Below, in pieces: positions 31,091 through 61,732 of a stretch of DNA of 64,000 nt. Both the position numbers and the translations under genes were made by a program. Every line of letters starts with the position of its first letter. Position 1 is the first letter of the stretch. The stretch comes from Artemia franciscana (taxonomy: Eukaryota > Arthropoda > Branchiopoda > Anostraca > Artemiidae): NCBI RefSeq assembly GCF_032884065.1, contig NC_088867.1:21892281-21956280 (forward strand), read 5' to 3'. The notes under the pieces are model-generated. The model ran no database searches and was not told the origin of the DNA. It saw only the letters and a list, made by a program, of their open reading frames with translations.

Positions 31091-31094
31091 TACA

Positions 31095-31720
31095 GCTATT
31101 CTGCTTTATTCGAAGTAAATGTGAGGCAAGGATGTACCACCACCAGCCTACAAACTTTCAATGTCTTCATCGAATACGCCATGGAAAGAACCACCAATCG
31201 TCTCTATTCTTGACTGCAGATTGGTGACCGAGTCCTAAGTTTTTTCTGACTTCGCAGATGATATTGCTTTGGTATACAACTCATCAGCTGAACTCGGAGA
31301 AGCCATTACCATTCATTTGGAAGAAGTATTTAAACTGGGCCTGAAAATCAGCGGGCAAAAGACTATGCTAATGATTATTGGCCCGGCAGACGCAATCTGT
31401 ACTCATCTGTATTCAATATAGCGAAAAATACGGTTGAAGTTGTGTAACTGTTCACGTATCTTGGCCTCTTCATCAGGGACAACAGATCTATCGAAGCTGA
31501 ATGTATGTCCTGAATCGCAAAGGCGGCCTCAACAATGGTCCAACTGTCTCGCTCTGTCTGATCAAAGCCCGGCATTACGCTCAAAACAAAGATGCGTATA
31601 TGCAACACCACTGTAAACCAAGTTCTTCTCTACTGTGCTAAGACCTAACCTGCTTCTGTTTCGGTCCAAAGCACCTTAGACACTACTCAAACCAAATTCC
31701 CCAGACAAATCAAAGATATT
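31095..31720 (+). pseudogene. LINE reverse transcriptase fragment
   Basis: Frames give FEVNVRQGCTTTSLQTFNVF, IEYAMERTTNRLY, DFADDIALVYNSSAELGEAI, LGLKISGQKTMLMIIGPA, then LFTYLGLFIRDNRSIEAECM and GITLKTKMRICNTTVNQVLL. This is the RT palm (with the FADD catalytic motif) and thumb of a non-LTR retrotransposon of the endonuclease-RT type. Several in-frame stops make it dead. The left edge of the 9.38-kb tandem unit cuts through it at 31,446, and the LINE reads on across that point, so copy 1 is in its original place. Confidence 0.85.
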
Positions 31721-32065
31721 AAGTTGTAAGACTTTTTTCCAATATCCAACTGCTGTCACTTATCAGCCAGACACATAATTCACGTCAGCTCGTGGGTTTC
31801 AGACCGCCTTGTCTGAAATAGCTAAATAGGAAACTTATAGTCCCTTGACCTGAACAAGAATAAACAAAAAGACAGATAAAACTCCACAAAAAACCTCAAA
31901 CGAGACCACGGCCAGTAGAGAGGAAAGACTAAAACAACGCGGATATTTCGCCTGTATCCAAACTAGGTGTCCTCAGCACGAGATAAAAAGAAAAAACCCA
32001 CTAAACTAAAAACAAATAAAACCACCACCAATAATAATAAATACAATTGTCAATTTACAATTAGA

Positions 32066-32180
32066 GGTACAATTTAGAGGTGAATTTTACAAACAGGTGT
32101 TTGGTTTGGCTATGGGGGCATCTCTCTCCCCTTTGTTGGCCAATCTCTTCATGGAATCTATTGAAACCTCTGCTATACAA
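32066..32180 (+). pseudogene. Penelope-like RT scrap
   Basis: GEFYKQVFGLAMGASLSPLL followed by ANLFMESIETSA matches the xFYKQVFGLAMGxPLSPxLA core of Penelope-like reverse transcriptases. Only about 38 residues remain. It is a fossil and differs from the RT at 30.0 kb. Confidence 0.75.
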
Positions 32181-32515
32181 AGTTTTAGGCTCTCCCCTTG
32201 TTTCTGGGGTAGATTCATGTTTCTGGGGTAGATTTATTAGTCAATTTCTATTTTGTAATTTCTACTTTTTCTTTGTCAAAAAAGCATGCAAAATTCATTT
32301 TAAAAATGTAAAGAATTGAATGTAAAATCATATGTAATGGACAGGAGCATCTTGCTTAAGAATTAGGAAGTGGTTGTTGTCATTTTTGGGACAGGCTACT
32401 TTTTTGTGTTATGCCTTCCCCTTGTCTGTATCTATTAATATCTATTATAGATACATTTATGTATTAATGTTTGATTTTTTTATATATAAAAAGATATCAT
32501 TCTACAAGTAAAAAC

Positions 32516-32731
32516 TCTCTTAGGTCCATAGTGTCCACTGATATAGCACAAAATACACATAAAAACTCAGGAAAGATTCAGGCATTCGAACTAAATCAAA
32601 TACTACATTCTGCAATGTTTTATTGCTTTGATATTGATGTTGGCAACAAAGCACGCTCACATTATTATGACGCTCTCAATGATTTATTTTGGTCTATATC
32701 TATTAATTTTTCTTTGTTCTCTGGTTTCTAG
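32516..32731 (+). other. Exon-like open segment, unrecognised
   Basis: After CTCTCTTAG (a possible acceptor) a frame stays open for about 70 codons: SIVSTDIAQNTHKNSGKIQA, FELNQILHSAMFYCFDIDVG, NKARSHYYDALNDLF. The composition looks protein-like and the block lies 340 bp before the ITPR exon remnant on the same strand. I do not recognise the family. Copies 2 (41,900-42,115) and 3 (51,283-51,498) differ by T to K at one residue. Confidence 0.35.
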
Positions 32732-33069
32732 TGATTCTTTAGGATAAACTTGCACTGCCCTTATAAATTCTTGTCCTTGTAAATAATTTACAGGTTGGGA
32801 AGTGAAAAAAAAGTTCCACTGGAAGTCAATACATAAAGAAAATCAAATGTCTACATCTTAATCCTCTCGTAATGTGCCAGAGCAATTTGACAAATCTGGA
32901 TGAAAAGCAAATTTGAGTAAATTTGTAATTTCAAAGATTTGTTTAAGTTGTCTACTTTTTTGGGAGTGATTTTTCTAGTTTCGTTTTGTCTTTTGACAGT
33001 TTCTCTTTCTTTATTTACCTTAACTTTTTTTTTCTTTGTTTTAATGCTAATATTTATTATTAGTTTCAG

Positions 33070-33299
33070 GGATCCGTAGTAAGCCATGATAATCAGAAAT
33101 GTATAGTAATGAATGAATCAAACAGCTTAGACATAGTAGTTGAACTTTTAACAGATGATATTAGTGTACTTGTAGATCAGACAAACTTTTAAATTGAAGA
33201 ATAATGCCTGTAAGCTATTATTAGCCATTATGGAAAGCCAAACAGATACAGAGAGTGCAGAGAGGATTTTCGGCAAAATTAATTCCAGACAGATGGTAG
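33070..33299 (+). pseudogene. Inositol 1,4,5-trisphosphate receptor exon remnant
   Basis: After a pyrimidine tract and TTTCAG, the first frame reads SHDNQKCIVMNESNSLDIVV and ELLTDDISVL. A second frame continues [20 protein letters not shown] then TESAERIFGKINSRQMV, to a donor GTAATA at 33,300. In IP3 receptors the matching stretch is ENQNCIATHESNGIDII..LILNDINPL, about ten residues, then [20 protein letters not shown] and SENAERILYNMRPKEL. The match covers the RIH-associated region of this ER calcium-release channel. The linker between the two parts is 22 nt where about 30 are expected, so the frame is lost. Both splice sites look good, so this was a real exon, now disabled. No other ITPR exon is recognised in the unit. 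Confidence 0.85.
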
Positions 33300-33739
33300 G
33301 TAATATGTGATGGTACACGTCAATTTTTGCTGATCTCCTTACTAAGTCATGCAGTGACAAGTTTCAATGGCTTCTATGGGGGGAGGGGTGCTCCTCCTTC
33401 CTTTCTCCTGATTTGTATGCCCTTCCCATCTAGATTTTAAAATATATATATTCTGGGTATTGTCATTGAAAAATACCCTTTTTTGTATATTCATGGAAAA
33501 AATTAAAAACAAAATAATATTTTCCCCCTCCCCCTAATTTTTGTGAATTGACGCCACTGACAAGATTTCAGGAAAATTTTAAAGAAAGTGACTGAGTTTA
33601 ATGGATTAAGCGCCAAGTTTCAGGAATTGATATTTGAGCTGATTCCCTAAAGTTTTATCAGTCAGAGAAAAAGTTAAAGAAGAAATATCAAAGAAACATT
33701 CCAGAAAGCGATTAGTCCAAATTGTATGTCCTTTTTCAT

Positions 33740-33745
33740 ATCTAG

Positions 33746-33776
<31 letters not shown>

Positions 33777-33780
33777 TCAA
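33740..33780. repeat. (TA)n tract of differing length in the three units
   Basis: TATTTATATATATATAT is longest in copy 1 (33,752-33,775), shorter in copy 2 (43,136-43,155) and shortest in copy 3 (52,519-52,537). It is a handy marker for telling the units apart. Confidence 0.8.
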
Positions 33781-35700
33781 TTGCCGTCGAATAAAAAATT
33801 CTATCTGTCTTAGTTCTGAAGTTGTTTTTTTTTTTCCATTGGCCAACTTTCTAACGTCACCACTTAGAAAGGAGTGGAGGATAAGCTCCAATTTCTTTAG
33901 CAATGAGAGAACTTTTAAAGTTTATAAAGCACACCTGAAACCATTTCTCTACCGCAATCCCATGTCCGAAAAACCTAATGATAAAATCAGTTGAAATCAC
34001 GAACAGAAATGGGTAGCAACAATAGATGGCAGTACTTTCAGACCCGTGGGAAAATGCCGCGTTTTTGCTTCTGTCAATTTTTCTATTTATCACTCGAAGA
34101 AGATGTATTAGCTGTGGAGCCGGGTATCTGCCGCATATATTTAACACTTATAGATTTTAGTCCATCTTCCATTTGAAAGTGGTGCCTACCTGCTTGCCTG
34201 CTAGAACGGAGCTTTCCACTCGAAAGCAGAAACATGGTTTGATGAAACGAAAGCTTGCACAACTTCAGATACTTCTCTCTGATATAGGCTATATAACTCC
34301 ACTTCACTTAGCACACCATAGTCTCTGGCTCATGGACAAGCGAAAACCATCTTTTTTGTCCCTAGGCAAGAGTTCTGCGGAGCTTTCCAAAATGTAATGC
34401 CATATTCATCAATCCAGCCTGAGGTCCACACTTTCCGTAAAAACCGCACAGGTTAGACACTTACCAGTGTCCAGGAATAAGCCGAGATCGGCGGCATAGA
34501 AAAAAAAAACGGGACAAAACCAAAGTGTTGCTCTCGCAACACAATAGCCGTCGATGCCAGGACTAGATCCAGCCACTTTGGGATTTCAAGTTTTGAGAGG
34601 ATGAAAAGTAATGAATTCGACTTTGCGGCTAAGTGGACCTTAAATTACCAAAAACACTAAGAGTGGAACTTGATTTTAAGTTGGTTAAATGGAAACTTTC
34701 ACTGCCATATGTGTCTTAAAAATGAGGAAAATTCTGGAGCTCAATTTTCAATGCAAAAGATCTCCAGATGCAGTTTGGTAGATTTACCCTTAGCGGGCGT
34801 CAACTTTGAAAATAAGGAACGCCTTTGAAAAACCAGTTGAAAATGAGCGAAAAAAACCACATAGTATTGGGGCTCTTGAAGCTATAACTTTCCTGATAGC
34901 TATAGCAAAAGATAGACAATGCTATAAATCTAGAAAAGTTTTTACATTAATTAAAAGTAAAGAAATAGATGAAACATTATAGTAGTTTCATTTAAATGTA
35001 AATACAACACTATGACAACAAGCATGCCAAATATATAAAGTGCTCAAATTTGGTATTTTTTTTGTAAGTAAAACTATAAATTTGGTATTTTTTTGTAAGT
35101 AAAACTAAACTAAGTTAGACAAGCTTGAAACGCAAGTAATTAAGCAAAGCAGTTCAAAACCATAAGGTTAGAAGTAGGTTCACTAAGGTCAGTTTTGGCC
35201 CAAGATTTAATACCTTTGAATGCTTCTGCTTGATCTGCCTTCTTGGTAGTCGGGTTAATTTTAGGTATTCGTTATTTTTTTATTCCTCATCATTGATTCT
35301 TTTTATTTGTCTATTCTTTATTAGACTTTAGTTATTCTTTTTTTGAACTCTTTGCTTCAAGATTTTCATTTTTTGTTCTGTTCTTTTTCAGGTCTATTAA
35401 CTGCTTTCCGTGATTTGAGTTATAGATGGTGCTTAAACACAATCACAGGACAACAGTATAGACTACTTTAGATTCAAATCCAATCATAATGCCCCTACAG
35501 ATGCTCTATTCACAATGCTCCAGTATATTCACCATGCTCCATTACTAAAGGAAGATTTAGCTTAATGTTCGCTTCACAAGCACCCATTATCAGTACCATT
35601 TTTGTTTTAAATCTTGAATAAAATTAAATCTCTGGCTTTGTAGGAGTTTTCTCTTCTAAACTAGAGCTGTTCAATGGAAAAACTACAAATAAAGCCTTAC

Positions 35701-35895
35701 CATCACATAGGGTTTGTCATTGCTACCGAAAGCACCGCCCAACCTTCTCCCTTGGAATGTCTACGCGTACCAGTTTACATCTTGGTCTTGGCGGATAAAG
35801 ACCAACTGCAGATCAAATTGGAACCTGTTGTGTCGTCCAACGATAAAACTACACATTCAAGCCATACCTGGTTAAGGAGGGAGGCCTGGCCACAG
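35701..35895 (-). pseudogene. Possible aldehyde oxidase/xanthine dehydrogenase exon remnant
   Basis: On the minus strand a good acceptor (TTTCATTACAG) opens a 195-bp segment that closes at a donor GTAAGG. One frame reads GRHNRFQFDLQLVFIRQDQD, VNWYA, a stop, and GRRLGGAFGSNDKPYVM. In molybdenum hydroxylases a GxQxHFxMExQ..VxPxxD..YA stretch is followed about 25-30 residues later by the RRxGGAFGGK loop near the molybdopterin. Here the order is kept but the linker is nearly gone, and the frame has stops. If correct this is a dead exon. The match is short, so chance similarity is possible. Confidence 0.35.
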
Positions 35896-37309
35896 CTGTA
35901 ATGAAAGTATTGAAAAGCTTAATTTAATGATGCTCCTTGTAACGAGGAGCCAAATTTCTTTAGAATATTTAAGGCTAAAACAATTTGTTGAGGACATTTC
36001 TTGCCTCTCTGACTTACTGAATTTAAGATGCACAAATGTATTAACTGAGATACAACTTCTTTCATGATTGTTTCCCTTAAAGTTCTCGCTTTCTTTAAAT
36101 TTTCTGTTTCAGCCTTTCTTCATCTTATTAGGTTTTTGGCAGCGTTTCACAATTTTATTGTGGGGGGCCACTACAATGAGACAATTGAAGTCTCTGCAGT
36201 GTATGTATTTTAAAAAAGTAGTCGGCTTGAAAGCAGTTTGGATCTTAAAGGTGACCTGGGTTTACCAAATTTGTGTCATAAGAGCATTATCAAGATGATC
36301 AAATTTTTGTTACAGATATTACATTTGCTCGATAACCGTCTAGTGAAGGCGGCTCACAATAACTTGTTGTAATCTTTTAAAAAGGCGAGGTGGCCAAAAC
36401 AGATTAAAGCCACGCCGGAAGAAGCTGGCTTCACATGGGCATGGAATAATAACCAGGGTCCTCATTGCAAACCTAATGATTTCCTTGGCATGTTGGATTT
36501 GGCTCTTTACCACCAGTAGATTAAAGCAGCCTATGATTTTATAACCAGATTAAAGTAATGTTTTGAGAGGAATTTCAGTTTATACTGAAACTACCGTACA
36601 GCGTCCCAAGGCATTGACGGTAGGTGTTTGCAAATTTTGTGCCATAGCGTAGGGCACACTTGGATTCTTATGATGAAAATGGCCGGGAGGCTGGTCTACT
36701 TGCACCCTTTGTTGAGAATATAGGAGAGACGCAGAACATTTTATGAGTAATTGTCAAAGTTTGGAGAATTTATAGAATTGCTTTTTTTTGGGGGGGGGGG
36801 ATAGGATGCATCATGGCTCCAATTTATCTTCGAGACATTTTATAGGAAGCTAATTATTATGGTGGAGAGTTTTATAGAGAATTTTTTAGAGTGGGCTACC
36901 CCTCCTCAATATCTTACTCTTTACGCTGAAGTTTGACTTTTTGCTCCAATTGCTTAAAAATGACTCCTGAAACACATGTTTTGTTAATTAGAACAATACG
37001 CTTTTTAATAACTCAAAAACTTTAGCATAAATGGCGAGGGATTGAGGTGGGGCGACCCCTTGTAAACGGTACAATTTCTGTTCGATTTAAGTTTTAATGT
37101 TACTCCTTGATTTCAGTTCAAAGGAAATATTGTTTTTCATTTTATTGTTTATAAGTCCGCATCCCTCAATGACGATTTTGTAGACATTTATATCTCAAGG
37201 CCAGTGGTGAAATTTTAGGCGCTTTATAAAACAAATTCTTAAGATTTGAGTCATATATGTAATTGCTGAGAATCTCTTGTTTTCATAAGAAAGCATTAAG
37301 TAGAGCCAG

Positions 37310-37760
37310 CCTTTGGGGATGGCAAGTGGTATAACCCCACCTGGCCTTCTCATAATACCCCATTGACCCTAACTTACGAACGAGTGGTCGGATCTCAATG
37401 AAATTTGATATTTAGAAGGACCTCGTAGCTAAGATCTCTTATTTTAAAATCCAACTCACATTTTAAATCCAACTGGATCCAGAGACATTGGAGGGAGTTG
37501 GAGGGGGAACTGAAAATCTTGGAAAACGCTCAGAGTGTAGAGATCGAGATGAAACTTGGTGGGAAGAATAAGAACATGTCCTAGATAAGTTGTTGACATT
37601 AAACGGACTGATTCTGCTCTCATTGGGGGAATTGCGTGGGTGTTAATTCGGAAAAATTAGACAAATTACGGTATTTTTATCTTACAAATGGGTAGCCAGA
37701 TCTTAACGCAACTGCTAAATACTTCATATTAAGCATTATATTTCACAAAATAAATATATA
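37310..37760 (-). repeat. Dispersed repeat, probably a LINE 3' untranslated segment
   Basis: ACTTACGAACGAGTGGTCGG, ATCTCAATGAAATTTGATAT and ATTGGAGGGAGTTGG also occur, diverged, at 60,390-60,515, where they adjoin a LINE C-terminus on the minus strand. The simplest reading is a 5'-truncated copy of that LINE's tail. It recurs in copies 2 (46,690-47,140) and 3 (56,070-56,520) of the unit. Confidence 0.5.
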
Positions 37761-37904
37761 TGCCAAATATCACGATCATAGAAGCAGAGCTAATCATTGG
37801 CTGTTTTCAATACTTTTCAATTGCAATCCAAATATTATTTCAATTTCTCTAATAACTTTCAAGGTTCTCTCGGAATAGGACAAATTGACTATACTTATGC
37901 AAAG

Positions 37905-38062
37905 AAGGGAATAATCTATCGATTGAATTTATTTTGTTGGTTGAATACTGTAGATGATTAGTATTTTTGGTTGAATATATCGATAGTATCGATATTGATG
38001 GTTGAATATTGTAGATTATCAATGTTGGCGGTTGAATATAAGTAGAGTTTATCGACAATTCA
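37905..38062 (+). promoter_or_regulatory. CGATA/GGTTGAATA repeat leader, copy 1
   Basis: Four GGTTGAATA words lie about 30 bp apart, interleaved with CTATCGATTG (37,916), ATATCGATAGTATCGATAT (about 37,977-37,995) and TTATCGAC (38,049). TATCGATA is the DREF-type element and clustered CGATA is the BEAF-type element of insect promoters. A TATAAG word at about 38,038 lies close before the 38,076 start codon. Seen: motifs and position. Inferred: promoter role. Confidence 0.45.
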
Positions 38063-38075
38063 CAGTACTGAGAAA

Positions 38076-38228
38076 ATGAGACAATGGGTTAAACAAGTTG
38101 TTTCACTTTTGCTTTTACTGATTTTAGGACTAACGAATGGCATTTTCGACGGAAATATAATCGGGTACAATAATAACAATAATTTTATTATTCTAAAATC
38201 CCTAGGGTCTTTAAAATACAAAGTTTAA
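38076..38228 (+). CDS. Candidate secreted 50-residue peptide, copy 1
   Basis: The frame begins MRQWVKQVVSLLLLLILGLT: a charged N-terminus, a leucine-rich core of about 11 residues and small residues (TNG) at about 20-22. This is a textbook signal peptide. The remainder is IFDGNIIGYNNNNNFIILKS then LGSLKYKV and a stop, with no cysteines and a short Asn run. The predicted mature peptide is about 28 residues. The start lies 10-20 bp after a plausible initiator and close behind a TATAAG word in a CGATA-rich leader. I know no matching family. It could also be the first exon of a longer secreted protein (GTACAA within codons 30-32 is a weak donor). The ORF is short, so chance is a real alternative. 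Confidence 0.4.
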   Translation: MRQWVKQVVSLLLLLILGLTNGIFDGNIIGYNNNNNFIILKSLGSLKYKV

Positions 38229-40452
38229 CAATTTATCCCAATTAATTTGCATAGTGCAAATAAAAACACTATATAAATTCTCTATAATTCTTATAGGTTT
38301 TAGAACTTTAAAGCTTAAGTTTAAAACATAAGTTTTAATTGGTACTTAGGTTTTATTTTGACAAATAAAGAAGCAATCCTTTAACTTCGCAAAACTTGAC
38401 GCGAAATATTGTAAATTTGAGTAACCAATTTGATTGGGGTTATTCAGCAGGTGTTACTTCACATTCATACTGTTCAATCAGTTAGACTAAGTGTCTTCAA
38501 TCAGTTTTTTCAATCAGCTTTTTGAATTTTAATATAGACGCAAGATGAACAGAGGTTTGTGTTTTGTTTTTCTCGAAGAAAGGGTACAATTCCTTTGCTC
38601 AAGAAAAGAAACTGTTAGTGCTTTCTGATGTAAAGATTATTTCTAATTAAAGAGATTCTTATATCAAAGCTATTTTTCCTTGTCTTCAAATTCGAAAAAA
38701 GAACTGTTCGTTGATTCCAATCAAAATTCTATAAGTTTAAACAAGGAATTCATTACGTTTCTATTTTTGAGTTGATTACTTGTTTTTGTTTTTTTGTTGT
38801 TGTTTTTTTTCAAATTACGCTAAAGCTGCTTTCCTGAAAGAAGAAAAAATTGGGATTTAAAATTTGTAATATTAAAACTTGCTTTCTTATCTTTTAAGTA
38901 TGATAAAAAATAACCTTTAATTAACAATAATAAAAATTCTTGAACTTCTGTCATTTAATTCTATAAACCTTCTTGTGTTTTGCTTGGTCCTGAATTAAGA
39001 AAAGGTATTTTCCGGAAATATTACTTTTTCGGGTAAATTTTTGTATTCACTGTTTGAGATACCTAAGAAATAGACATACCTTTAGAAGCGAAGTTTTATT
39101 CCAAATCAAAATATAACATTCATTTTGTTTGGAAAGTTAAATAACCCACACCCTACCCCCAAATGGTTAAATATATACCTTGAATTGTATATTTAAGGTG
39201 AGTTTCCTAATTGTCACTCTTTTTTTAAAACTAATTTAACGATTTGTCAAAACAATGGCAATCCCTTTCTTTATATTATTTTGGGTATATATTTGTCTGT
39301 TAGTCGGGGGGGGGGGAAGTCAAAGAGTAACATTACAACTGAAATTAATGCAAAATTTTGCTGCAGGATAAAATTCTGATTCTAAAGGTACAGTATTGGT
39401 CATAGAGCTATCTCAATGCCCAGAGAATCGCAACACTGACCCTGTTTGGTGTCATAACTCTTTTTCTCCAAAGAACAACTTGGTTGAATAATGGAGCAGT
39501 TAATATTAAAATTGTTTTTTCTTATCTTTAAGTTAGTAAAAAAGAAAATCGCCAGCAACAATATAAATTACAATTTTGGCTGTTAGAGCCCTACAGAATT
39601 AAAAACATTGAAACTTGACCCATAATTTTAAGGGGGCAAGAAAAGGGCTGCCAAAATTGAAACCTAAAACCTGACTAAGTCTTTTCAAATATAATTGGGA
39701 AATTTAGGCCTATGCAGAAATTTCAAGTTCCTATCTAAAAAAATACGGAATTTTGTATTTTTGGCCAGAAGGCAAATCACGAATGCGTGTTCTTTTTTTC
39801 CAGGGGTGATCGTATCGGCCCAGTGGTCCTAGAATGTCTTTTACGCTTCTCCTCCACCCCACTCTGTTCGAAACGCCACCTCTTACTACTACTGTGACCA
39901 ATACTACAATTAAGGCTAAGGGTGTGAAGGTGAAAACCTTCTTATCCTTAACCTTCAAATATTCAACCCTCAAACCTTGAAATATGCAGGGGGTTTCGGA
40001 AAAAAAATCAAATGACGTTGTTTGCATGCAAGTTGTCAATTCAAGCAAATTTCTCCAGCGTAAAATTCTCATTGAAAAACTAAATTCCTGGAACCTTCCC
40101 TTATCATCGAAAATTATCCCCGTGGAAAATCCTGCCAGCAGATAACTCCACTTCATCTCCCGAGAAATATGTGCATACTTCCCAATAACAAATACTATAT
40201 GTAAACAATGGGCAAATTTTGTAGTAGTTTTTGACAGAAATAATATTTAGGTGGCGACACTGACACCGATAGAACTATTCCAGAGTCACTATTATTCCTC
40301 AGCTTCCTATGTCGCTTCTTACCTGCAGTTCAAAAGCTTGATATTTTTATTTAAATAAAAATAAACTCGAGCGACGATCAGTCACAAAGTGTGATATACA
40401 GATACCTTTATTTTTGAGGCGGTCACATAGGACATATAAGAGTCAGTGATCA

Positions 40453-40785
40453 TTATACCTCATAATTTTCAATTACTTCCTTCGCTTTTCTAGAACATAC
40501 CTTCGAAAGCTTGGCTTTCAAATCCCGGAATTTTTCAACCAATAAAGACACTTCAGTGGCTCTATCTAACTGCTCCCTTGCCAATGCACTTGCAAGTCTC
40601 TTATAGTGTAAAATTACAGTTTGAATGAAATTCTTAAAATTTGAATGTGTTAAATTAAAGAAAAAACAGAAAATCAATAGGACTGGAAACAGTAACAGAA
40701 ATCTTAATTTTTCATCGGTTCTAGTTTCTTTCATGTTTTCTTTTCTTTTATATACATAGATATTTTTTATTTTCATCCAAAACAT
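40453..40785 (-). CDS. Unrecognised 110-residue membrane/coiled-coil ORF, copy 1
   Basis: MFWMKIKN... with a second, better placed methionine at residue 18 (MKETRTDEK, AAAACATGA context). RFLLLFPVLLIFCFFFNL (about 28-45) is a likely membrane segment. The rest is charged and probably helical: ALAREQLDRATEVSLLVEKF then RDLKAKLSKVCSRKAKEVIE. An AATAAA signal lies 40 nt past the stop (40,407-40,412), consistent with a small single-exon gene. Alternatively, AAG|GTATGT after codon LSK (donor at 40,499-40,500) and TTTCCAG before the membrane segment would make it an internal exon. I do not recognise a family. The unit boundary lies 45 bp upstream of the first ATG. Confidence 0.35.
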   Translation of the reverse strand: MFWMKIKNIYVYKRKENMKETRTDEKLRFLLLFPVLLIFCFFFNLTHSNFKNFIQTVILHYKRLASALAREQLDRATEVSLLVEKFRDLKAKLSKVCSRKAKEVIENYEV

Positions 40786-40829
40786 ATAAATTAAACAAAG
40801 AATTTACCATTAACGGCCACTCTTAAGAC

Positions 40830-41104
40830 AACTGTTCACGTATCTTGGCCTCTTCATCAGGGACAACAGATCTATCGAAGCTGAATGTATGTCCTGAATC
40901 GCAAAGGCGGCCTCAACAATGGTCCAACTGTCTCGCTCTGTCTGATCAAAGCCCGGCATTACGCTCAAAACAAAGATGCGTATATGCAACACCACTGTAA
41001 ACCAAGTTCTTCTCTACTGTGCTAAGACCTAACCTGCTTCTGTTTCGGTCCAAAGCACCTTAGACACTACTCAAACCAAATTCCCCAGACAAATCAAAGA
41101 TATT
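40830..41104 (+). pseudogene. LINE RT tail in copy 2, cut at the duplication junction
   Basis: Starts at FTYLGLFIRDN; the upstream RT palm is absent because the unit boundary removed it. Confidence 0.8.
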
Positions 41105-41449
41105 AAGTTGTAAGACTTTTTTCCAATATCCAACTGCTGTCACTTATCAGCCAGACACATAATTCACGTCAGCTCGTGGGTTTCAGACCGCCTTGTCTGA
41201 AATAGCTAAATAGGAAACTTATAGTCCCTTGACCTGAACAAGAATAAACAAAAAGACAGATAAAACTCCACAAAAAACCTCAAACGAGACCACGGCCAGT
41301 AGAGAGGAAAGACTAAAACAACGCGGATATTTCGCCTGTATCCAAACTAGGTGTCCTCAGCACGAGATAAAAAGAAAAAACCCACTAAACTAAAAACAAA
41401 TAAAACCACCACCAATAATAATAAATACAATTGTCAATTTACAATTAGA

Positions 41450-41564
41450 GGTACAATTTAGAGGTGAATTTTACAAACAGGTGTTTGGTTTGGCTATGGG
41501 GGCATCTCTCTCCCCTTTGTTGGCCAATCTCTTCATGGAATCTATTGAAACCTCTGCTATACAA
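41450..41564 (+). pseudogene. Penelope-like RT scrap, copy 2
   Basis: Same fragment in the second 9.38-kb unit. Confidence 0.75.
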
Positions 41565-42453: not shown

Positions 42454-42683
42454 GGATCCGTAGTAAGCCATGATAATCAGAAATGTATAGTAATGAATGA
42501 ATCAAACAGCTTAGACATAGTAGTTGAACTTTTAACAGATGATATTAGTGTACTTGTAGATCAGACAAACTTTTAAATTGAAGAATAATGCCTGTAAGCT
42601 ATTATTAGCCATTATGGAAAGCCAAACAGATACAGAGAGTGCAGAGAGGATTTTCGGCAAAATTAATTCCAGACAGATGGTAG
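42454..42683 (+). pseudogene. ITPR exon remnant, copy 2
   Basis: Same exon, same frame loss and same splice sites as in copy 1. The amplification therefore came after the gene fragment was disabled. Confidence 0.85.
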
Positions 42684-47444: not shown

Positions 47445-47457
47445 CAGTACTGAGAAA

Positions 47458-47610
47458 ATGAGACAATGGGTTAAACAAGTTGTTTCACTTTTGCTTTTAC
47501 TGATTTTAGGACTAACGAATGGCATTTTCGACGGAAATATAATCGGGTACAATAATAACAATAATTTTATTATTCTAAAATCCCTAGGGTCTTTAAAATA
47601 CAAAGTTTAA
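47458..47610 (+). CDS. Candidate secreted 50-residue peptide, copy 2
   Basis: Same coding sequence as copy 1. I see no base difference within the frame. Confidence 0.4.
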   Translation: MRQWVKQVVSLLLLLILGLTNGIFDGNIIGYNNNNNFIILKSLGSLKYKV

Positions 47611-49835
47611 CAATTTATCCCAATTAATTTGCATAGTGCAAATAAAAACACTATATAAATTCTCTATAATTCTTATAGGTTTTAGAACTTTAAAGCTTAA
47701 GTTTAAAACATAAGTTTTAATTGGTACTTAGGTTTTATTTTGACAAATAAAGAAGCAATCCTTTAACTTCGCAAAACTTGACGCGAAATATTGTAAATTT
47801 GAGTAACCAATTTGATTGGGGTTATTCAGCAGGTGTTACTTCACATTCATACTGTTCAATCAGTTAGACTAAGTGTCTTCAATCAGTTTTTTCAATCAGC
47901 TTTTTGAATTTTAATATAGACGCAAGATGAACAGAGGTTTGTGTTTTGTTTTTCTCGAAGAAAGGGTACAATTCCTTTGCTCAAGAAAAGAAACTGTTAG
48001 TGCTTTCTGATGTAAAGATTATTTCTAATTAAAGAGATTCTTATATCAAAGCTATTTTTCCTTGTCTTCAAATTCGAAAAAAGAACTGTTCGTTGATTCC
48101 AATCAAAATTCTATAAGTTTAAACAAGGAATTCATTACGTTTCTATTTTTGAGTTGATTACTTGTTTTTGTTTTTTTGTTGTTTTTTTTTTTTCAAATTA
48201 CGCTAAAGCTGCTTTCCTGAAAGAAGAAAAAATTGGGATTTAAAATTTGTAATATTAAAACTTGCTTTCTTATCTTTTAAGTATGATAAAAAATAACCTT
48301 TAATTAACAATAATAAAAATTCTTGAACTTCTGTCATTTAATTCTATAAACCTTCTTGTGTTTTGCTTGGTCCTGAATTAAGAAAAGGTATTTTCCGGAA
48401 ATATTACTTTTTCGGGTAAATTTTTGTATTCACTGTTTGAGATACCTAAGAAATAGACATACCTTTAGAAGCGAAGTTTTATTCCAAATCAAAATATAAC
48501 ATTCATTTTGTTTGGAAAGTTAAATAACCCACACCCTACCCCCAAATGGTTAAATATATACCTTGAATTGTATATTTAAGGTGAGTTTCCTAATTGTCAC
48601 TCTTTTTTTAAAACTAATTTAACGATTTGTCAAAACAATGGCAATCCCTTTCTTTATATTATTTTGGGTATATATTTGTCTGTTAGTCGGGGGGGGGGGA
48701 AGTCAAAGAGTAACATTACAACTGAAATTAATGCAAAATTTTGCTGCAGGATAAAATTCTGATTCTAAAGGTACAGTATTGGTCATAGAGCTATCTCAAT
48801 GCCCAGAGAATCGCAACACTGACCCTGTTTGGTGTCATAACTCTTTTTCTCCAAAGAACAACTTGGTTGAATAATGGAGCAGTTAATATTAAAATTGTTT
48901 TTTCTTATCTTTAAGTTAGTAAAAAAGAAAATCGCCAGCAACAATATAAATTACAATTTTGGCTGTTAGAGCCCTACAGAATTAAAAACATTGAAACTTG
49001 ACCCATAATTTTAAGGGGGCAAGAAAAGGGCTGCCAAAATTGAAACCTAAAACCTGACTAAGTCTTTTCAAATATAATTGGGAAATTTAGGCCTATGCAG
49101 AAATTTCAAGTTCCTATCTAAAAAAATACGGAATTTTGTATTTTTGGCCAGAAGGCAAATCACGAATGCGTGTTCTTTTTTTCCAGGGGTGATCGTATCG
49201 GCCCAGTGGTCCTAGAATGTCTTTTACGCTTCTCCTCCACCCCACTCTGTTCGAAACGCCACCTCTTACTACTACTGTGACCAATACTACAATTAAGGCT
49301 AAGGGTGTGAAGGTGAAAACCTTCTTATCCTTAACCTTCAAATATTCAACCCTCAAACCTTGAAATATGCAGGGGGTTTCGGAAAAAAAATCAAATGACG
49401 TTGTTTGCATGCAAGTTGTCAATTCAAGCAAATTTCTCCAGCGTAAAATTCTCATTGAAAAACTAAATTCCTGGAACCTTCCCTTATCATCGAAAATTAT
49501 CCCCGTGGAAAATCCTGCCAGCAGATAACTCCACTTCATCTCCCGAGAAATATGTGCATACTTCCCAATAACAAATACTATATGTAAACAATGGGCAAAT
49601 TTTGTAGTAGTTTTTGACAGAAATAATATTTAGGTGGCGACACTGACACCGATAGAACTATTCCAGAGTCACTATTATTCCTCAGCTTCCTATGTCGCTT
49701 CTTACCTGCAGTTCAAAAGCTTGATATTTTTATTTAAATAAAAATAAACTCGAGCGACGATCAGTCACAAAGTGTGATATACAGATACCTTTATTTTTGA
49801 GGCGGTCACATAGGACATATAAGAGTCAGTGATCA

Positions 49836-50168
49836 TTATACCTCATAATTTTCAATTACTTCCTTCGCTTTTCTAGAACATACCTTCGAAAGCTTGGCTT
49901 TCAAATCCCGGAATTTTTCAACCAATAAAGACACTTCAGTGGCTCTATCTAACTGCTCCCTTGCCAATGCACTTGCAAGTCTCTTATAGTGTAAAATTAC
50001 AGTTTGAATGAAATTCTTAAAATTTGAATGTGTTAAATTAAAGAAAAAACAGAAAATCAATAGGACTGGAAACAGTAACAGAAATCTTAATTTTTCATCG
50101 GTTCTAGTTTCTTTCATGTTTTCTTTTCTTTTATATACATAGATATTTTTTATTTTCATCCAAAACAT
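49836..50168 (-). CDS. Unrecognised 110-residue ORF, copy 2
   Basis: Same protein as copy 1. Upstream lies the LINE tail of copy 3, so any promoter beyond the unit edge is missing. Confidence 0.33.
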   Translation of the reverse strand: MFWMKIKNIYVYKRKENMKETRTDEKLRFLLLFPVLLIFCFFFNLTHSNFKNFIQTVILHYKRLASALAREQLDRATEVSLLVEKFRDLKAKLSKVCSRKAKEVIENYEV

Positions 50169-50212
50169 ATAAATTAAACAAAGAATTTACCATTAACGGC
50201 CACTCTTAAGAC

Positions 50213-50487
50213 AACTGTTCACGTATCTTGGCCTCTTCATCAGGGACAACAGATCTATCGAAGCTGAATGTATGTCCTGAATCGCAAAGGCGGCCTCAAC
50301 AATGGTCCAACTGTCTCGCTCTGTCTGATCAAAGCCCGGCATTACGCTCAAAACAAAGATGCGTATATGCAACACCACTGTAAACCAAGTTCTTCTCTAC
50401 TGTGCTAAGACCTAACCTGCTTCTGTTTCGGTCCAAAGCACCTTAGACACTACTCAAACCAAATTCCCCAGACAAATCAAAGATATT
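50213..50487 (+). pseudogene. LINE RT tail in copy 3, cut at the duplication junction
   Basis: Same truncated start as in copy 2. Confidence 0.8.
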
Positions 50488-50832
50488 AAGTTGTAAGACT
50501 TTTTTCCAATATCCAACTGCTGTCACTTATCAGCCAGACACATAATTCACGTCAGCTCGTGGGTTTCAGACCGCCTTGTCTGAAATAGCTAAATAGGAAA
50601 CTTATAGTCCCTTGACCTGAACAAGAATAAACAAAAAGACAGATAAAACTCCACAAAAAACCTCAAACGAGACCACGGCCAGTAGAGAGGAAAGACTAAA
50701 ACAACGCGGATATTTCGCCTGTATCCAAACTAGGTGTCCTCAGCACGAGATAAAAAGAAAAAACCCACTAAACTAAAAACAAATAAAACCACCACCAATA
50801 ATAATAAATACAATTGTCAATTTACAATTAGA

Positions 50833-50947
50833 GGTACAATTTAGAGGTGAATTTTACAAACAGGTGTTTGGTTTGGCTATGGGGGCATCTCTCTCCCCTT
50901 TGTTGGCCAATCTCTTCATGGAATCTATTGAAACCTCTGCTATACAA
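50833..50947 (+). pseudogene. Penelope-like RT scrap, copy 3
   Basis: Same fragment in the third 9.38-kb unit. Confidence 0.75.
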
Positions 50948-51836
50948 AGTTTTAGGCTCTCCCCTTGTTTCTGGGGTAGATTCATGTTTCTGGGGTAGAT
51001 TTATTAGTCAATTTCTATTTTGTAATTTCTACTTTTTCTTTGTCAAAAAAGCATGCAAAATTCATTTTAAAAATGTAAAGAATTGAATGTAAAATCATAT
51101 GTAATGGACAGGAGCATCTTGCTTAAGAATTAGGAAGTGGTTGTTGTCATTTCTGGGACAGGCTACTTTTTTGTGTTATGCCTTCCCCTTGTCTGTATCT
51201 ATTAATATCTATTATAGATACATTTATGTATTAATGTTTGATTTTTTTATATATAAAAAGATATCATTCTACAAGTAAAAACTCTCTTAGGTCCATAGTG
51301 TCCACTGATATAGCACAAAATAAACATAAAAACTCAGGAAAGATTCAGGCATTCGAACTAAATCAAATACTACATTCTGCAATGTTTTATTGCTTTGATA
51401 TTGATGTTGGCAACAAAGCACGCTCACATTATTATGACGCTCTCAATGATTTATTTTGGTCTATATCTATTAATTTTTCTTTGTTCTCTGGTTTCTAGTG
51501 ATTCTTTAGGATAAACTTGCACTGCCCTTATAAATTCTTGTCCTTGTAAATAATTTACAGGTTGGGAAGTGAAAAAAAAGTTCCACTGGAAGTCAATACA
51601 TAAAGAAAATCAAATGTCTACATCTTAATCCTCTCGTAATGTGCCAGAGCAATTTGACAAATCTGGATGAAAAGCAAATTTGAGTAAATTTGTAATTTCA
51701 AAGATTTGTTTAAGTTGTCTACTTTTTTGGGAGTGATTTTTCTAGTTTCGTTTTGTCTTTTGACAGTTTCTCTTTCTTTATTTACCTTAACTTTTTTTTT
51801 CTTTGTTTTAATGCTAATATTTATTATTAGTTTCAG

Positions 51837-52066
51837 GGATCCGTAGTAAGCCATGATAATCAGAAATGTATAGTAATGAATGAATCAAACAGCTTAGACA
51901 TAGTAGTTGAACTTTTAACAGATGATATTAGTGTACTTGTAGATCAGACAAACTTTTAAATTGAAGAATAATGCCTGTAAGCTATTATTAGCCATTATGG
52001 AAAGCCAAACAGATACAGAGAGTGCAGAGAGGATTTTCGGCAAAATTAATTCCAGACAGATGGTAG
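51837..52066 (+). pseudogene. ITPR exon remnant, copy 3
   Basis: Same exon, frame loss and splice sites as in copies 1 and 2. Confidence 0.85.
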
Positions 52067-54460
52067 GTAATATGTGATGGTACACGTCAATTTTTGCTGA
52101 TCTCCTTACTAAGTCATGCAGTGACAAGTTTCAATGGCTTCTATGGGGGGAGGGGTGCTCCTCCTTCCTTTCTCCTGATTTGTATGCCCTTCCCATCTAG
52201 ATTTTAAAATATATATATTCTGGGTATTGTCATTGAAAAATACCCTTTTTTGTATATTCATGGAAAAAATTAAAAACAAAATAATATTTTCCCCCTCCCC
52301 CTAATTTTTGTGAATTGACGCCACTGACAAGATTTCAGGAAAATTTTAAAGAAAGTGACTGAGTTTAATGGATTAAGCGCCAAGTTTCAGGAATTGATAT
52401 TTGAGCTGATTCCCTAAAGTTTTATCAGTCAGAGAAAAAGTTAAAGAAGAAATATCAAAGAAACATTCCAGAAAGCGATTAGTCCAAATTGTATGTCCTT
52501 TTTCATATCTAGTATTTATTTATATATATATATATATCAATTGCCGTCGAATAAAAAATTCTATCTGTCTTAGTTCTGAAGTTGTTTTTTTTTTTCCATT
52601 GGCCAACTTTCTAACGTCACCACTTAGAAAGGAGTGGAGGATAAGCTCCAATTTCTTTAGCAATGAGAGAACTTTTAAAGTTTATAAAGCACACCTGAAA
52701 CCATTTCTCTACCGCAATCCCATGTCCGAAAAACCTAATGATAAAATCAGTTGAAATCACGAACAGAAATGGGTAGCAACAATAGATGGCAGTACTTTCA
52801 GACCCGTGGGAAAATGCCGCGTTTTTGCTTCTGTCAATTTTTCTATTTATCACTCGAAGAAGATGTATTAGCTGTGGAGCCGGGTATCTGCCGCATATAT
52901 TTAACACTTATAGATTTTAGTCCATCTTCCATTTGAAAGTGGTGCCTACCTGCTTGCCTGCTAGAACGGAGCTTTCCACTCGAAAGCAGAAACATGGTTT
53001 GATGAAACGAAAGCTTGCACAACTTCAGATACTTCTCTCTGATATAGGCTATATAACTCCACTTCACTTAGCACACCATAGTCTCTGGCTCATGGACAAG
53101 CGAAAACCATCTTTTTTGTCCCTAGGCAAGAGTTCTGCGGAGCTTTCCAAAATGTAATGCCATATTCATCAATCCAGCCTGAGGTCCACACTTTCCGTAA
53201 AAACCGCACAGGTTAGACACTTACCAGTGTCCAGGAATAAGCCGAGATCGGCGGCATAGAAAAAAAAAACGGGACAAAACCAAAGTGTTGCTCTCGCAAC
53301 ACAATAACCGTCGATGCCAGGACTAGATCCAGCCACTTTGGGATTTCAAGTTTTGAGAGGATGAAAAGTAATGAATTCGACTTTGCGGCTAAGTGGACCT
53401 TAAATTACCAAAAACACTAAGAGTGGAACTTGATTTTAAGTTGGTTAAATGGAAACTTTCACTGCCATATGTGTCTTAAAAATGAGGAAAATTCTGGAGC
53501 TCAATTTTCAATGCAAAAGATCTCCAGATGCAGTTTGGTAGATTTACCCTTAGCGGGCGTCAACTTTGAAAATAAGGAACGCCTTTGAAAAACCAGTTGA
53601 AAATGAGCGAAAAAAACCACATAGTATTGGGGCTCTTGAAGCTATAACTTTCCTGATAGCTATAGCAAAAGATAGACAATGCTATAAATCTAGAAAAGTT
53701 TTTACATTAATTAAAAGTAAAGAAATAGATGAAACATTATAGTAGTTTCATTTAAATGTAAATACAACACTATGACAACAAGCATGCCAAATATATAAAG
53801 TGCTCAAATTTGGTATTTTTTTTGTAAGTAAAACTATAAATTTGGTATTTTTTTGTAAGTAAAACTAAACTAAGTTAGACAAGCTTGAAACGCAAGTAAT
53901 TAAGCAAAGCAGTTCAAAACCATAAGGTTAGAAGTAGGTTCACTAAGGTCAGTTTTGGCCCAAGATTTAATACCTTTGAATGCTTCTGCTTGATCTGCCT
54001 TCTTGGTAGTCGGGTTAATTTTAGGTATTCGTTATTTTTTTATTCCTCATCATTGATTCTTTTTATTTGTCTATTCTTTATTAGACTTTAGTTATTCTTT
54101 TTTTGAACTCTTTGCTTCAAGATTTTCATTTTTTGTTCTGTTCTTTTTCAGGTCTATTAACTGCTTTCCGTGATTTGAGTTATAGATGGTGCTTAAACAC
54201 AATCACAGGACAACAGTATAGACTACTTTAGATTCAAATCCAATCATAATGCCCCTACAGATGCTCTATTCACAATGCTCCAGTATATTCACCATGCTCC
54301 ATTACTAAAGGAAGATTTAGCTTAATGTTCGCTTCACAAGCACCCATTATCAGTACCATTTTTGTTTTAAATCTTGAATAAAATTAAATCTCTGGCTTTG
54401 TAGGAGTTTTCTCTTCTAAACTAGAGCTGTTCAATGGAAAAACTACAAATAAAGCCTTAC

Positions 54461-54655
54461 CATCACATAGGGTTTGTCATTGCTACCGAAAGCACCGCCC
54501 AACCTTCTCCCTTGGAATGTCTACGCGTACCAGTTTACATCTTGGTCTTGGCGGATAAAGACCAACTGCAGATCAAATTGGAACCTGTTGTGTCGTCCAA
54601 CGATAAAACTACACATTCAAGCCATACCTGGTTAAGGAGGGAGGCCTGGCCACAG
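54461..54655 (-). pseudogene. Possible AO/XDH exon remnant, copy 3
   Basis: Identical segment in the third unit. Confidence 0.33.
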
Positions 54656-56666
54656 CTGTAATGAAAGTATTGAAAAGCTTAATTTAATGATGCTCCTTGT
54701 AACGAGGAGCCAAATTTCTTTAGAATATTTAAGGCTAAAACAATTTGTTGAGGACATTTCTTGCCTCTCTGACTTACTGAATTTAAGATGCACAAATGTA
54801 TTAACTGAGATACAACTTCTTTCATGATTGTTTCCCTTAAAGTTCTCGCTTTCTTTAAATTTTCTGTTTCAGCCTTTCTTCATCTTATTAGGTTTTTGGC
54901 AGCGTTTCACGATTTTATTGTGGGGGGCCACTACAATGAGACAATTGAAGTCTCTGCAGTGTATGTATTTTAAAAAAGTAGTCGGCTTGAAAGCAGTTTG
55001 GATCTTAAAGGTGACCTGGGTTTACCAAATTTGTGTCATAAGAGCATTATCAAGATGATCAAATTTTTGTTACAGATATTACATTTGCTCGATAACCGTC
55101 TAGTGAAGGCGGCTCACAATAACTTGTTGTAATCTTTTAAAAAGGCGAGGTGGCCAAAACAGATTAAAGCCACGCCGGAAGAAGCTGGCTTCACATGGGC
55201 ATGGAATAATAACCAGGGTCCTCATTGCAAACCTAATGATTTCCTTGGCATGTTGGATTTGGCTCTTTACCACCAGTAGATTAAAGCAGCCTATGATTTT
55301 ATAACCAGATTAAAGTAATGTTTTGAGAGGAATTTCAGTTTATACTGAAACTACCGTACAGCGTCCCAAGGCATTGACGGTAGGTGTTTGCAAATTTTGT
55401 GCCATAGCGTAGGGCACACTTGGATTCTTATGATGAAAATGGCCGGGAGGCTGGTCTACTTGCACCCTTTGTTGAGAATATAGGAGAGACGCAGAACATT
55501 TTATGAGTAATTGTCAAAGTTTGGAGAATTTATAGAATTGCTTTTTTTTTGGGGGGGGGGGAATAGGATGCATCATGGCTCCAATTTATCTTCGAGACAT
55601 TTTATAGGAAGCTAATTATTATGGTGGAGAGTTTTATAGAGAATTTTTTAGAGTGGGCTACCCCTCCTCAATATCTTACTCTTTACGCTGAAGTTTGACT
55701 TTTTGCTCCAATTGCTTAAAAATGACTCCTGAAACACATGTTTTGTTAATTAGAACAATACGCTTTTTAATAACTCAAAAACTTTAGCATAAATGGCGAG
55801 GGATTGAGGTGGGGCGACCCCTTGTAAACGGTACAATTTCTGTTCGATTTAAGTTTTAATGTTACTCCTTGATTTCAGTTCAAAGGAAATATTGTTTTTC
55901 ATTTTATTGTTTATAAGTCCGCATCCCTCAATGACGATTTTGTAGACATTTATATCTCAAGGCCAGTGGTGAAATTTTAGGCGCTTTATAAAACAAATTC
56001 TTAAGATTTGAGTCATATATGTAATTGCTGAGAATCTCTTGTTTTCATAAGAAAGCATTAAGTAGAGCCAGCCTTTGGGGATGGCAAGTGGTATAACCCC
56101 ACCTGGCCTTCTCATAATACCCCATTGACCCTAACTTACGAACGAGTGGTCGGATCTCAATGAAATTTGATATTTAGAAGGACCTCGTAGCTAAGATCTC
56201 TTATTTTAAAATCCAACTCACATTTTAAATCCAACTGGATCCAGAGACATTGGAGGGAGTTGGAGGGGGAACTGAAAATCTTGGAAAACGCTCAGAGTGT
56301 AGAGATCGAGATGAAACTTGGTGGGAAGAATAAGAACATGTCCTAGATAAGTTGTTGACATTAAACGGACTGATTCTGCTCTCATTGGGGGAATTGCGTG
56401 GGTGTTAATTCGGAAAAATTAGACAAATTACGGTATTTTTATCTTACAAATGGGTAGCCAGATCTTAACGCAACTGCTAAATACTTCATATTAAGCATTA
56501 TATTTCACAAAATAAATATATATGCCAAATATCACGATCATAGAAGCAGAGCTAATCATTGGCTGTTTTCAATACTTTTCAATTGCAATCCAAATATTAT
56601 TTCAATTTCTCTAATAACTTTCAAGGTTCTCTCGGAATAGGACAAATTGACTATACTTATGCAAAG

Positions 56667-56824
56667 AAGGGAATAATCTATCGATTGAATTTATTTTGTT
56701 GGTTGAATACTGTAGATGATTAGTATTTTTGGTTGAATATATCGATAGTATCGATATTGATGGTTGAATATTGTAGATTATCAATGTTGGCGGTTGAATA
56801 TAAGTAGAGTTTATCGACAATTCA
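56667..56824 (+). promoter_or_regulatory. CGATA/GGTTGAATA repeat leader, copy 3
   Basis: Unchanged copy ahead of the third peptide ORF. Confidence 0.45.
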
Positions 56825-56837
56825 CAGTACTGAGAAA

Positions 56838-56990
56838 ATGAGACAATGGGTTAAACAAGTTGTTTCACTTTTGCTTTTACTGATTTTAGGACTAACGAAT
56901 GGCATTTTCGACGGAAATATAATCGGGTACAATAATAACAATAATTTTATTATTCTAAAATCCCTAGGGTCTTTAAAATACAAAGTTTAA
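56838..56990 (+). CDS. Candidate secreted 50-residue peptide, copy 3
   Basis: Same coding sequence as copies 1 and 2. Confidence 0.4.
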   Translation: MRQWVKQVVSLLLLLILGLTNGIFDGNIIGYNNNNNFIILKSLGSLKYKV

Positions 56991-59216
56991 CAATTTATCC
57001 CAATTAATTTGCATAGTGCAAATAAAAACACTATATAAATTCTCTATAATTCTTATAGGTTTTAGAACTTTAAAGCTTAAGTTTAAAACATAAGTTTTAA
57101 TTGGTACTTAGGTTTTATTTTGACAAATAAAGAAGCAATCCTTTAACTTCGCAAAACTTGACGCGAAATATTGTAAATTTGAGTAACCAATTTGATTGGG
57201 GTTATTCAGCAGGTGTTACTTCACATTCATACTGTTCAATCAGTTAGACTAAGTGTCTTCAATCAGTTTTTTCAATCAGCTTTTTGAATTTTAATATAGA
57301 CGCAAGATGAACAGAGGTTTGTGTTTTGTTTTTCTCGAAGAAAGGGTACAATTCCTTTGCTCAAGAAAAGAAACTGTTAGTGCTTTCTGATGTAAAGATT
57401 ATTTCTAATTAAAGAGATTCTTATATCAAAGCTATTTTTCCTTGTCTTCAAATTCGAAAAAAGAACTGTTCGTTGATTCCAATCAAAATTCTATAAGTTT
57501 AAACAAGGAATTCATTACGTTTCTATTTTTGAGTTGATTACTTGTTTTTGTTTTTTTGTTGTTTTTTTTTTTTCAAATTACGCTAAAGCTGCTTTCCTGA
57601 AAGAAGAAAAAATTGGGATTTAAAATTTGTAATATTAAAACTTGCTTTCTTATCTTTTAAGTATGATAAAAAATAACCTTTAATTAACAATAATAAAAAT
57701 TCTTGAACTTCTGTCATTTAATTCTATAAACCTTCTTGTGTTTTGCTTGGTCCTGAATTAAGAAAAGGTATTTTCCGGAAATATTACTTTTTCGGGTAAA
57801 TTTTTGTATTCACTGTTTGAGATACCTAAGAAATAGACATACCTTTAGAAGCGAAGTTTTATTCCAAATCAAAATATAACATTCATTTTGTTTGGAAAGT
57901 TAAATAACCCACACCCTACCCCCAAATGGTTAAATATATACCTTGAATTGTATATTTAAGGTGAGTTTCCTAATTGTCACTCTTTTTTTAAAACTAATTT
58001 AACGATTTGTCAAAACAATGGCAATCCCTTTCTTTATATTATTTTGGGTATATATTTGTCTGTTAGTCGGGGGGGGGGGAAGTCAAAGAGTAACATTACA
58101 ACTGAAATTAATGCAAAATTTTGCTGCAGGATAAAATTCTGATTCTAAAGGTACAGTATTGGTCATAGAGCTATCTCAATGCCCAGAGAATCGCAACACT
58201 GACCCTGTTTGGTGTCATAACTCTTTTTCTCCAAAGAACAACTTGGTTGAATAATGGAGCAGTTAATATTAAAATTGTTTTTTCTTATCTTTAAGTTAGT
58301 AAAAAAGAAAATCGCCAGCAACAATATAAATTACAATTTTGGCTGTTAGAGCCCTACAGAATTAAAAACATTGAAACTTGACCCATAATTTTAAGGGGGC
58401 AAGAAAAGGGCTGCCAAAATTGAAACCTAAAACCTGACTAAGTCTTTTCAAATATAATTGGGAAATTTAGGCCTATGCAGAAATTTCAAGTTCCTATCTA
58501 AAAAAATACGGAATTTTGTATTTTTGGCCAGAAGGCAAATCACGAATGCGTGTTCTTTTTTTCCAGGGGTGATCGTATCGGCCCAGTGGTCCTAGAATGT
58601 CTTTTACGCTTCTCCTCCACCCCACTCTGTTCGAAACGCCACCTCTTACTACTACTGTGACCAATACTACAATTAAGGCTAAGGGTGTGAAGGTGAAAAC
58701 CTTCTTATCCTTAACCTTCAAATATTCAACCCTCAAACCTTGAAATATGCAGGGGGTTTCGGAAAAAAAAATCAAATGACGTTGTTTGCATGCAAGTTGT
58801 CAATTCAAGCAAATTTCTCCAGCGTAAAATTCTCATTGAAAAACTAAATTCCTGGAAGCTTCCCTTATCATCGAAAATTATCCCCGTGGAAAATCCTGCC
58901 AGCAGATAACTCCACTTCATCTCCCGAGAAATATGTGCATACTTCCCAATAACAAATACTATATGTAAACAATGGGCAAATTTTGTAGTAGTTTTTGACA
59001 GAAATAATATTTAGGTGGCGACACTGACACCGATAGAACTATTCCAGAGTCACTATTATTCCTCAGCTTCCTATGTCGCTTCTTACCTGCAGTTCAAAAG
59101 CTTGATATTTTTATTTAAATAAAAATAAACTCGAGCGACGATCAGTCACAAAGTGTGATATACAGATACCTTTATTTTTGAGGCGGTCACATAGGATATA
59201 TAAGAGTCAGTGATCA

Positions 59217-59549
59217 TTATACCTCATAATTTTCAATTACTTCCTTCGCTTTTCTAGAACATACCTTCGAAAGCTTGGCTTTCAAATCCCGGAATTTTTC
59301 AACCAATAAAGACACTTCAGTGGCTCTATCTAACTGCTCCCTTGCCAATGCACTTGCAAGTCTCTTATAGTGTAAAATTACAGTTTGAATGAAATTCTTA
59401 AAATTTGAATGTGTTAAATTAAAGAAAAAACAGAAAATCAATAGGACTGGAAACAGTAACAGAAATCTTAATTTTTCATCGGTTCTAGTTTCTTTCATGT
59501 TTTCTTTTCTTTTATATACATAGATATTTTTTATTTTCATCCAAAACAT
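59217..59549 (-). CDS. Unrecognised 110-residue ORF, copy 3 (original flank)
   Basis: Same protein. Only this copy keeps what should be the original upstream DNA (beyond 59,594), so if the ORF belongs to a gene, this is the one most likely to be expressed. Confidence 0.35.
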   Translation of the reverse strand: MFWMKIKNIYVYKRKENMKETRTDEKLRFLLLFPVLLIFCFFFNLTHSNFKNFIQTVILHYKRLASALAREQLDRATEVSLLVEKFRDLKAKLSKVCSRKAKEVIENYEV

Positions 59550-59729
59550 ATAAATTAAACAAAGAATTTACCATTAACGGCCACTCTTAAGACAAAAGAG
59601 TCCTGACTGTGGCCGCAATTCTAACCACCATGAATCTGCTAAATCATTTCTTCAAATGATTTTGAAGAAAGAAAAAAAAATCTTTGGGGGGGGGGGGTAA
59701 AAAAACAAAATAATTAATATTAAATAATA

Positions 59730-61730: not shown

Positions 61731-61732
61731 AT

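Follow-up and report, generated by a model that had tools for sequence, protein, structure and literature searches.

Copy gain through mispairing of a tandem duplication is known from the Bar/double-Bar system of Drosophila, which has a phenotype, whereas none is known for the array described here. In sticklebacks, according to a preprint (PMC12776057), the copy-number cluster of the myosin gene MYH3C was founded by a duplication at a microhomology and then expanded by NAHR, and an intermediate copy with last-copy sequence on its 5' side and first-copy sequence on its 3' side was both predicted and found. The same diagnostic is used here for the middle copy of our array, although MYH3C is a gene cluster with 4 to 8 bp of microhomology and several haplotypes, while we are dealing with 2 bp, one assembly and no recognized host gene. 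In cucumber, the copy number of the 30.2-kb tandem repeat at the Femaleness (F) locus was ascribed to unequal crossing over (PMC7072070). There, too, the repeats are direct and in tandem and share a novel junction; however, that locus carries sex-expression genes, and the work on it drew on lines and populations, in contrast to the single assembly, with neither phenotype nor pedigree, considered here.

The window, i.e., the whole 64-kb stretch of DNA that was analyzed, comprises bases 21892281 to 21956280 of a 60.9-Mb contig (C5) in a 1.27-Gb assembly of 6468 contigs. The size of the genome, its base composition and its retrotransposons suggest a eukaryote, probably an invertebrate animal. Directly in the assembly, it contains three head-to-tail units of 9.38 kb, joined by two identical junctions (unit positions below are counted from the start of copy 1, and a slash marks a join):

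31446..40829, plus strand: copy 1 (c1), 9384 bp
40830..50212, plus strand: copy 2 (c2), 9383 bp
50213..59594, plus strand: copy 3 (c3), 9382 bp
40820..40839, plus strand: junction c1/c2, AAGAC/AACTG, with 2-bp microhomology AA
50203..50222, plus strand: junction c2/c3, same sequence as junction c1/c2

The three copies and their lengths had been proposed in an earlier, sequence-only reading and, by self-BLAST and alignment, proved right to the base; the description as a young head-to-tail triplication holds as well. Self-BLAST gave 99.86% identity for 31446-50214 against 40830-59595 and 99.81% for 31446-40831 against 50213-59595, and with 28 kb at ~99.8% identity, chance likeness among the copies is of no concern. 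The joins are free of spacer, as had been stated, but the sequence given for them (AAGACA/AACTG) needs a small correction: at the coordinates above, c1 and c2 end in AAGAC and c3 in AAGACA. The outer edges of the array read TTGTGT/AACTG on the left and AAGACA/AAAGAG on the right, and the AA common to both constitutes the 2-bp microhomology, because of which the A at the internal joins (AAGAC/AACTG) can be assigned to either side. Across the whole assembly, a 23-mer spanning the junction has two occurrences, which are the expected joins of the array (reversed control, 0 occurrences). The junction is thus identical in all head-to-tail joins and absent from the single-copy relatives, the pattern looked for in NAHR expansion.

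These relatives came from a genome search that used the unit's initial 1555 bases as the query (46 matches listed; 40 of 2411 candidates scored). Among the matches listed, five covered the full query, namely, c1, c2, c3 and two single copies, A and C, all on the same contig; relative to the start of c1, A begins ~55 kb earlier and C ~95 kb later. The matches listed also included partial relatives (89 to 90% over ~0.7 to 0.77 kb of the query) at another six places on this contig, in the interval from 21.99 to 22.20 Mb. Copy A (21868336-21877729) is uninterrupted and 99.18% identical to the unit (BLAST on a 250-kb region), and lies across an assembly gap, a run of 100 N directly before the window start and the sole gap in the assembled 250-kb region. 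Copy C (22018459-22032840) is near-complete, 99.57 to 99.90% identical to the unit and located in the same gap-free stretch as the array; it is interrupted by a ~4.8-kb retrotransposon whose 123-bp target-site duplication is exact, and a 152-bp segment is missing from it. Both A and C, directly observed as single copies, extend beyond the unit on either side into flanking sequence that they have in common with the array:

24686..31445, plus strand: flank to the left of the array, 98.9% like that of C
59595..63554, plus strand: flank to the right of the array, 99.7% like that of C; its first 1.7 kb are also 99.0% like that of A

Since A and C are single and continuous with the array's flanks, the single copy was taken as the ancestral state.

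Outside simple-sequence tracts, alignment of c1, c2 and c3 reproduced the ten substitutions reported previously, together with their 3/4/3 split and the accompanying length changes. The odd one out is c1 at unit positions 941, 1111 and 3102, c2 at 1608, 2976, 3601 and 3954, and c3 at 4706, 8649 and 8988; the tracts that vary in length consist of TA (near 2325), T/G/A (near 5344-5355), T/G (near 7354-7357, where c1 also has G instead of T) and A (at 8554). Raw pairwise distances, simple tracts excluded, are nearly equal, at 6 to 7 substitutions per pair. Such values are what a one-step triplication would give, by rolling-circle replication or repeated template switching, with three identical copies later taking up private mutations, and the sequence-only reading had indeed concluded from them that divergence was equal and that the copies arose close together. 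That conclusion did not survive polarization, for which A and C served as outgroups. Eight of the ten substitutions could be polarized, and in four of these eight, the derived base, seen directly in the assembly, is common to two copies: to c2 and c3 at unit 941 and to c1 and c2 at 4706, 8649 and 8988, with none shared by c1 and c3. The private derived substitutions belong to c1 (1111), which also has changes of its own in T/G runs, and c2 (2976, 3601 and 3954). No private polarized substitution was found in c3, and the three changes formerly listed as unique to it are ancestral bases (4706, 8649 and 8988), none newly arisen. Four repeated changes or conversions would be needed to reconcile these bases with a star-like origin, which we consider very improbable. 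The equal distances are better read, on the polarized bases, as pointing to a mosaic middle copy rather than to simultaneous origin. We considered that A might be an allelic (haplotig) version of the locus across the gap; such an origin would leave the polarization unchanged, since C has the same base as A at each of the eight polarized positions.

The suggested mosaic can be followed along the unit. From unit 1 to 3400, c2 and c3 differ at 2 columns, c1 and c3 at 3, and c1 and c2 at 5; from 3401 to 4300, c1 equals c3 and c2 differs from both at 2 columns (private c2 sites); and from 4301 to 9384, c1 and c2 differ at 2 columns (both in simple tracts, 5355 and 7357), c2 and c3 at 3, and c1 and c3 at 5. 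All four polarized shared-derived substitutions, just one of them on the left, fit a middle copy that equals the last copy on the left and the first copy on the right. The length of a T9 homopolymer near unit 5344, for which c2 equals c3 on the right side, does not fit such a switch, though it adjoins a further change in c1.

From this pattern, we infer a two-step order of events, a tandem duplication followed by unequal crossing-over that added a hybrid middle copy, and regard this history as probable. Within segment B, which belongs to a recent segmental duplication, a 9.38-kb piece would have been duplicated head to tail, giving X-Y, with a founding join that used the 2 bp of microhomology, either in end joining or in a microhomology-primed replication switch. 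X and Y would then have accumulated a few substitutions apart, until a Y and an X located on different chromatids or homologues mispaired, whereupon a single crossover inside the repeat produced X-(Y-left/X-right)-Y, i.e., the present c1-c2-c3. Accordingly placed, c1 would be the descendant of the left founder X, and c2 would be the hybrid, c3-like at 941 and c1-like at 4706-8988, an orientation that is the one required for copy gain. The breakpoint would most parsimoniously lie between unit 941 and 4706, and the later private changes would amount to at least three in c2 and at least one in c1. At assumed rates of 1e-8 to 1e-9, the six substitutions by which c1 and c3 differ would represent ~3e4-3e5 generations.

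As far as the aligned bases go, the left side of the putative mosaic rests on one polarized site (941) and the right side on three, and a simple ((c1,c2),c3) tree in which the change at 941 happened twice costs just one extra step. The two remaining substitutions, at unit 1608 and 3102, were assigned no polarity, as A and C disagree there; c2 has G as in copy A at the former and c1 has G as in copy A at the latter. This homoplasy points to conversion or old polymorphism, which could mimic a switch. As a sign of some exchange, or of old polymorphism, it is also what speaks for a different scenario, in which the copies formed in another order and short-tract gene conversion, mutually and with A and C, took the place of a crossover creating the third copy. 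That scenario requires more events than one crossover, and c1 lacks the private bases that A has at 983 and 1815, two positions within the interval 941 to 3102, so that no long tract came from A; we consider this scenario unlikely.

The two-step history presupposes that three copies are really there. Repeats of ~9 kb are a known assembly difficulty, and two real copies or alleles might have been chained into three; a walk through the assembly graph could also yield a middle copy switching from Y to X; moreover, a 100-N gap immediately precedes the window. However, c2 has three private substitutions plus the G at 1608 and is therefore not merely c1 joined to c3, in line with the earlier argument, which we accept, that copy-private bases speak against a pure assembly stutter. 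In addition, the founding junction is a novel join, there is no N inside the array or between the array and copy C, and none of the scored matches was a near-identical copy on another contig. An assembly error thus appears quite improbable.

A second, separate tandem array is located in the same window, ~13 kb from the first; both lie in segment B:

13559..18226, plus strand: tandem array with a 1.61-kb unit; a copy truncated by 170 bp at its start, followed by two full copies

About three copies (t1, t2 and t3) are present here, and one each in A and C. The founding breakpoints of both arrays are without long homology, with AA at the 9.38-kb array and a 2-nucleotide filler, TG, at the junctions of the 1.61-kb array. 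Just two sites in the smaller unit are both polarized and shared: a derived base is common to t2 and t3 at unit 1350 and to t1 and t2 at unit 1485, again a hybrid-middle pattern, left then right. Sites 246 (t2 with t3) and 1471 (t1 with t2) fall on the expected sides, but A and C differ there; the comparison leaves out an A-rich tract (unit ~900-1130) in which t1 is misaligned. Computed post hoc, the probability that both arrays show a perfect switch in the predicted order is ~0.004 if pair types are random and ~0.02 if no-switch patterns are also allowed. It is conceivable, if rather unlikely, that segment B is still a hot spot of amplification in which a local factor promotes copy gain; each array would then have gone from one to about three copies by a duplication of the end-joining type plus unequal crossing-over, A and C having stayed single.

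Regarding the content of the 9.38-kb unit, the following elements were found:

32010..32231, plus strand: reverse-transcriptase-like fragment (RVT_1, E of 4.5e-4 when scanned alone, below the Pfam cut-off)
33777..34545, no strand assigned: dispersed repeat of ~770 bp; of the 43 matches listed (40 of 4442 candidates scored), 34 are other places with 90 to 92% identity
unit 414-606: dispersed repeat of ~190 bp, from the genome search

The RVT_1-like fragment is read, on its similarity, as a probable transposon remnant. Scanning the entire unit against Pfam in six frames (X at stops) yielded nothing at E up to 1 but was too insensitive, as it missed the reverse-transcriptase fragment, which is seen when scanned alone. 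A six-frame rescan of copy 1 in overlapping pieces of 1.6 to 1.8 kb yielded no family at its cut-off and seven sub-cut-off families at E up to 0.5 (RVT_1, 0.009; DUF6451, 0.023; 2-oxoacid_dh, 0.048; MASE8, 0.05; TrkH, 0.089; DUF4519, 0.18; RnaseA, 0.35). For a 116-amino-acid open frame (40453-40803, minus strand), there were no PDB matches below E 0.58, and its TrkH match was sub-cut-off; a 171-amino-acid open frame (39731-40246, minus strand) had no Pfam matches at E up to 1. On its right side (38000-40829), the unit has matches of 74 to 97% elsewhere (60 listed; 40 of 6232 candidates scored) and, since five fetched relatives contain no open frame over 112 amino acids, this side was read as a repeat, not a gene. 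No Rfam family at gathering score and no tRNA was found in the unit. A functional multicopy gene array (rDNA, tRNA, histone, etc.) was rejected, with no RNA or protein gene per unit recognizable by Rfam, tRNA or Pfam searches. Helitrons begin with TC, end with CTRR and are inserted between A and T; a Helitron tandem array was likewise rejected, as the unit starts with AACTG and ends with AAGACA. Nor is the unit an inserted element, because loci A and C run on through both boundaries. A helicase-domain remnant is present outside the array. Since no host gene was recognized in the unit, we infer no function and provisionally take the array to be neutral, though it may contain an unrecognized gene.

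Judged from its sequence, the array looks real and seems to represent an ordinary event of a known type, a case of genome turnover in a transposon-rich, duplication-prone region; the triplication implies no new biology, and the locus adds a further example, one without a recognized host gene. What it does illustrate is how misleading it can be when three tandem copies are equally distant from one another: here, outgroup copies favor a two-step history with a recombinant middle. If verified by reads, the array would provide a compact example of the passage from duplication to triplication, with few confusing mutations, and a useful test case for dating and assembly checking.

Copy C, the single near-complete copy of the 9.38-kb unit in segment C of contig NC_088867.1 (hereafter C5), is interrupted by a retrotransposon with two long open frames (542 and 1104 aa) and an exact target-site duplication of 123 bp, which seems long; the insertion is evidently recent. 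The same copy lacks 152 bp of the unit (positions 3730 to 3881), and at that site it carries about 216 bp (C5:22027122-22027337) identical to unit positions 2482 to 2697, a swap that is possibly a templated patch. Segment A, with the other single copy, lies across a 100-N gap from the window and could therefore be an allelic or misplaced piece.

C5:22021274-22026083, minus strand (long open frames), retrotransposon in copy C
C5:21892181-21892280, assembly gap directly preceding the window

Within the window, a second tandem array, distinct from the 9.38-kb one, has junctions with a 2-nucleotide filler, TG; its unit is single in segments A and C. Long (AAAAAAACT)n-type arrays occur elsewhere in the window. 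No Pfam family matched at cut-off in 22960-23631 (minus strand), which, together with the helicase-domain stretch listed below, we take to be a possible Helitron remnant.

13559-18226, 1.61-kb unit, about 2.9 copies
889-2125 and 24691-27451, both orientations, GC-richer 26- to 27-bp satellite of the TCCCGGTGTCCCGGTCGTCATTTATAT type
23881-24864, minus strand, Pif1 helicase 2B domain (E 5.5e-19)

Finally, an actin-family frame of about 375 aa, without introns or interruption, was found in four duplicated places.

18891-20021, plus strand, window copy (Pfam Actin, E 2.3e-146)
C5:21861889-21863019, plus strand
C5:22001110-22002240, plus strand
C5:21855209-21856339, minus strand

When the four copies were compared, non-synonymous differences equaled or exceeded synonymous ones in all six pairs (e.g., 7 versus 6 in one pair). 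This is unusual for actin, and the substitution pattern suggests that constraint on the duplicated frames is relaxed.
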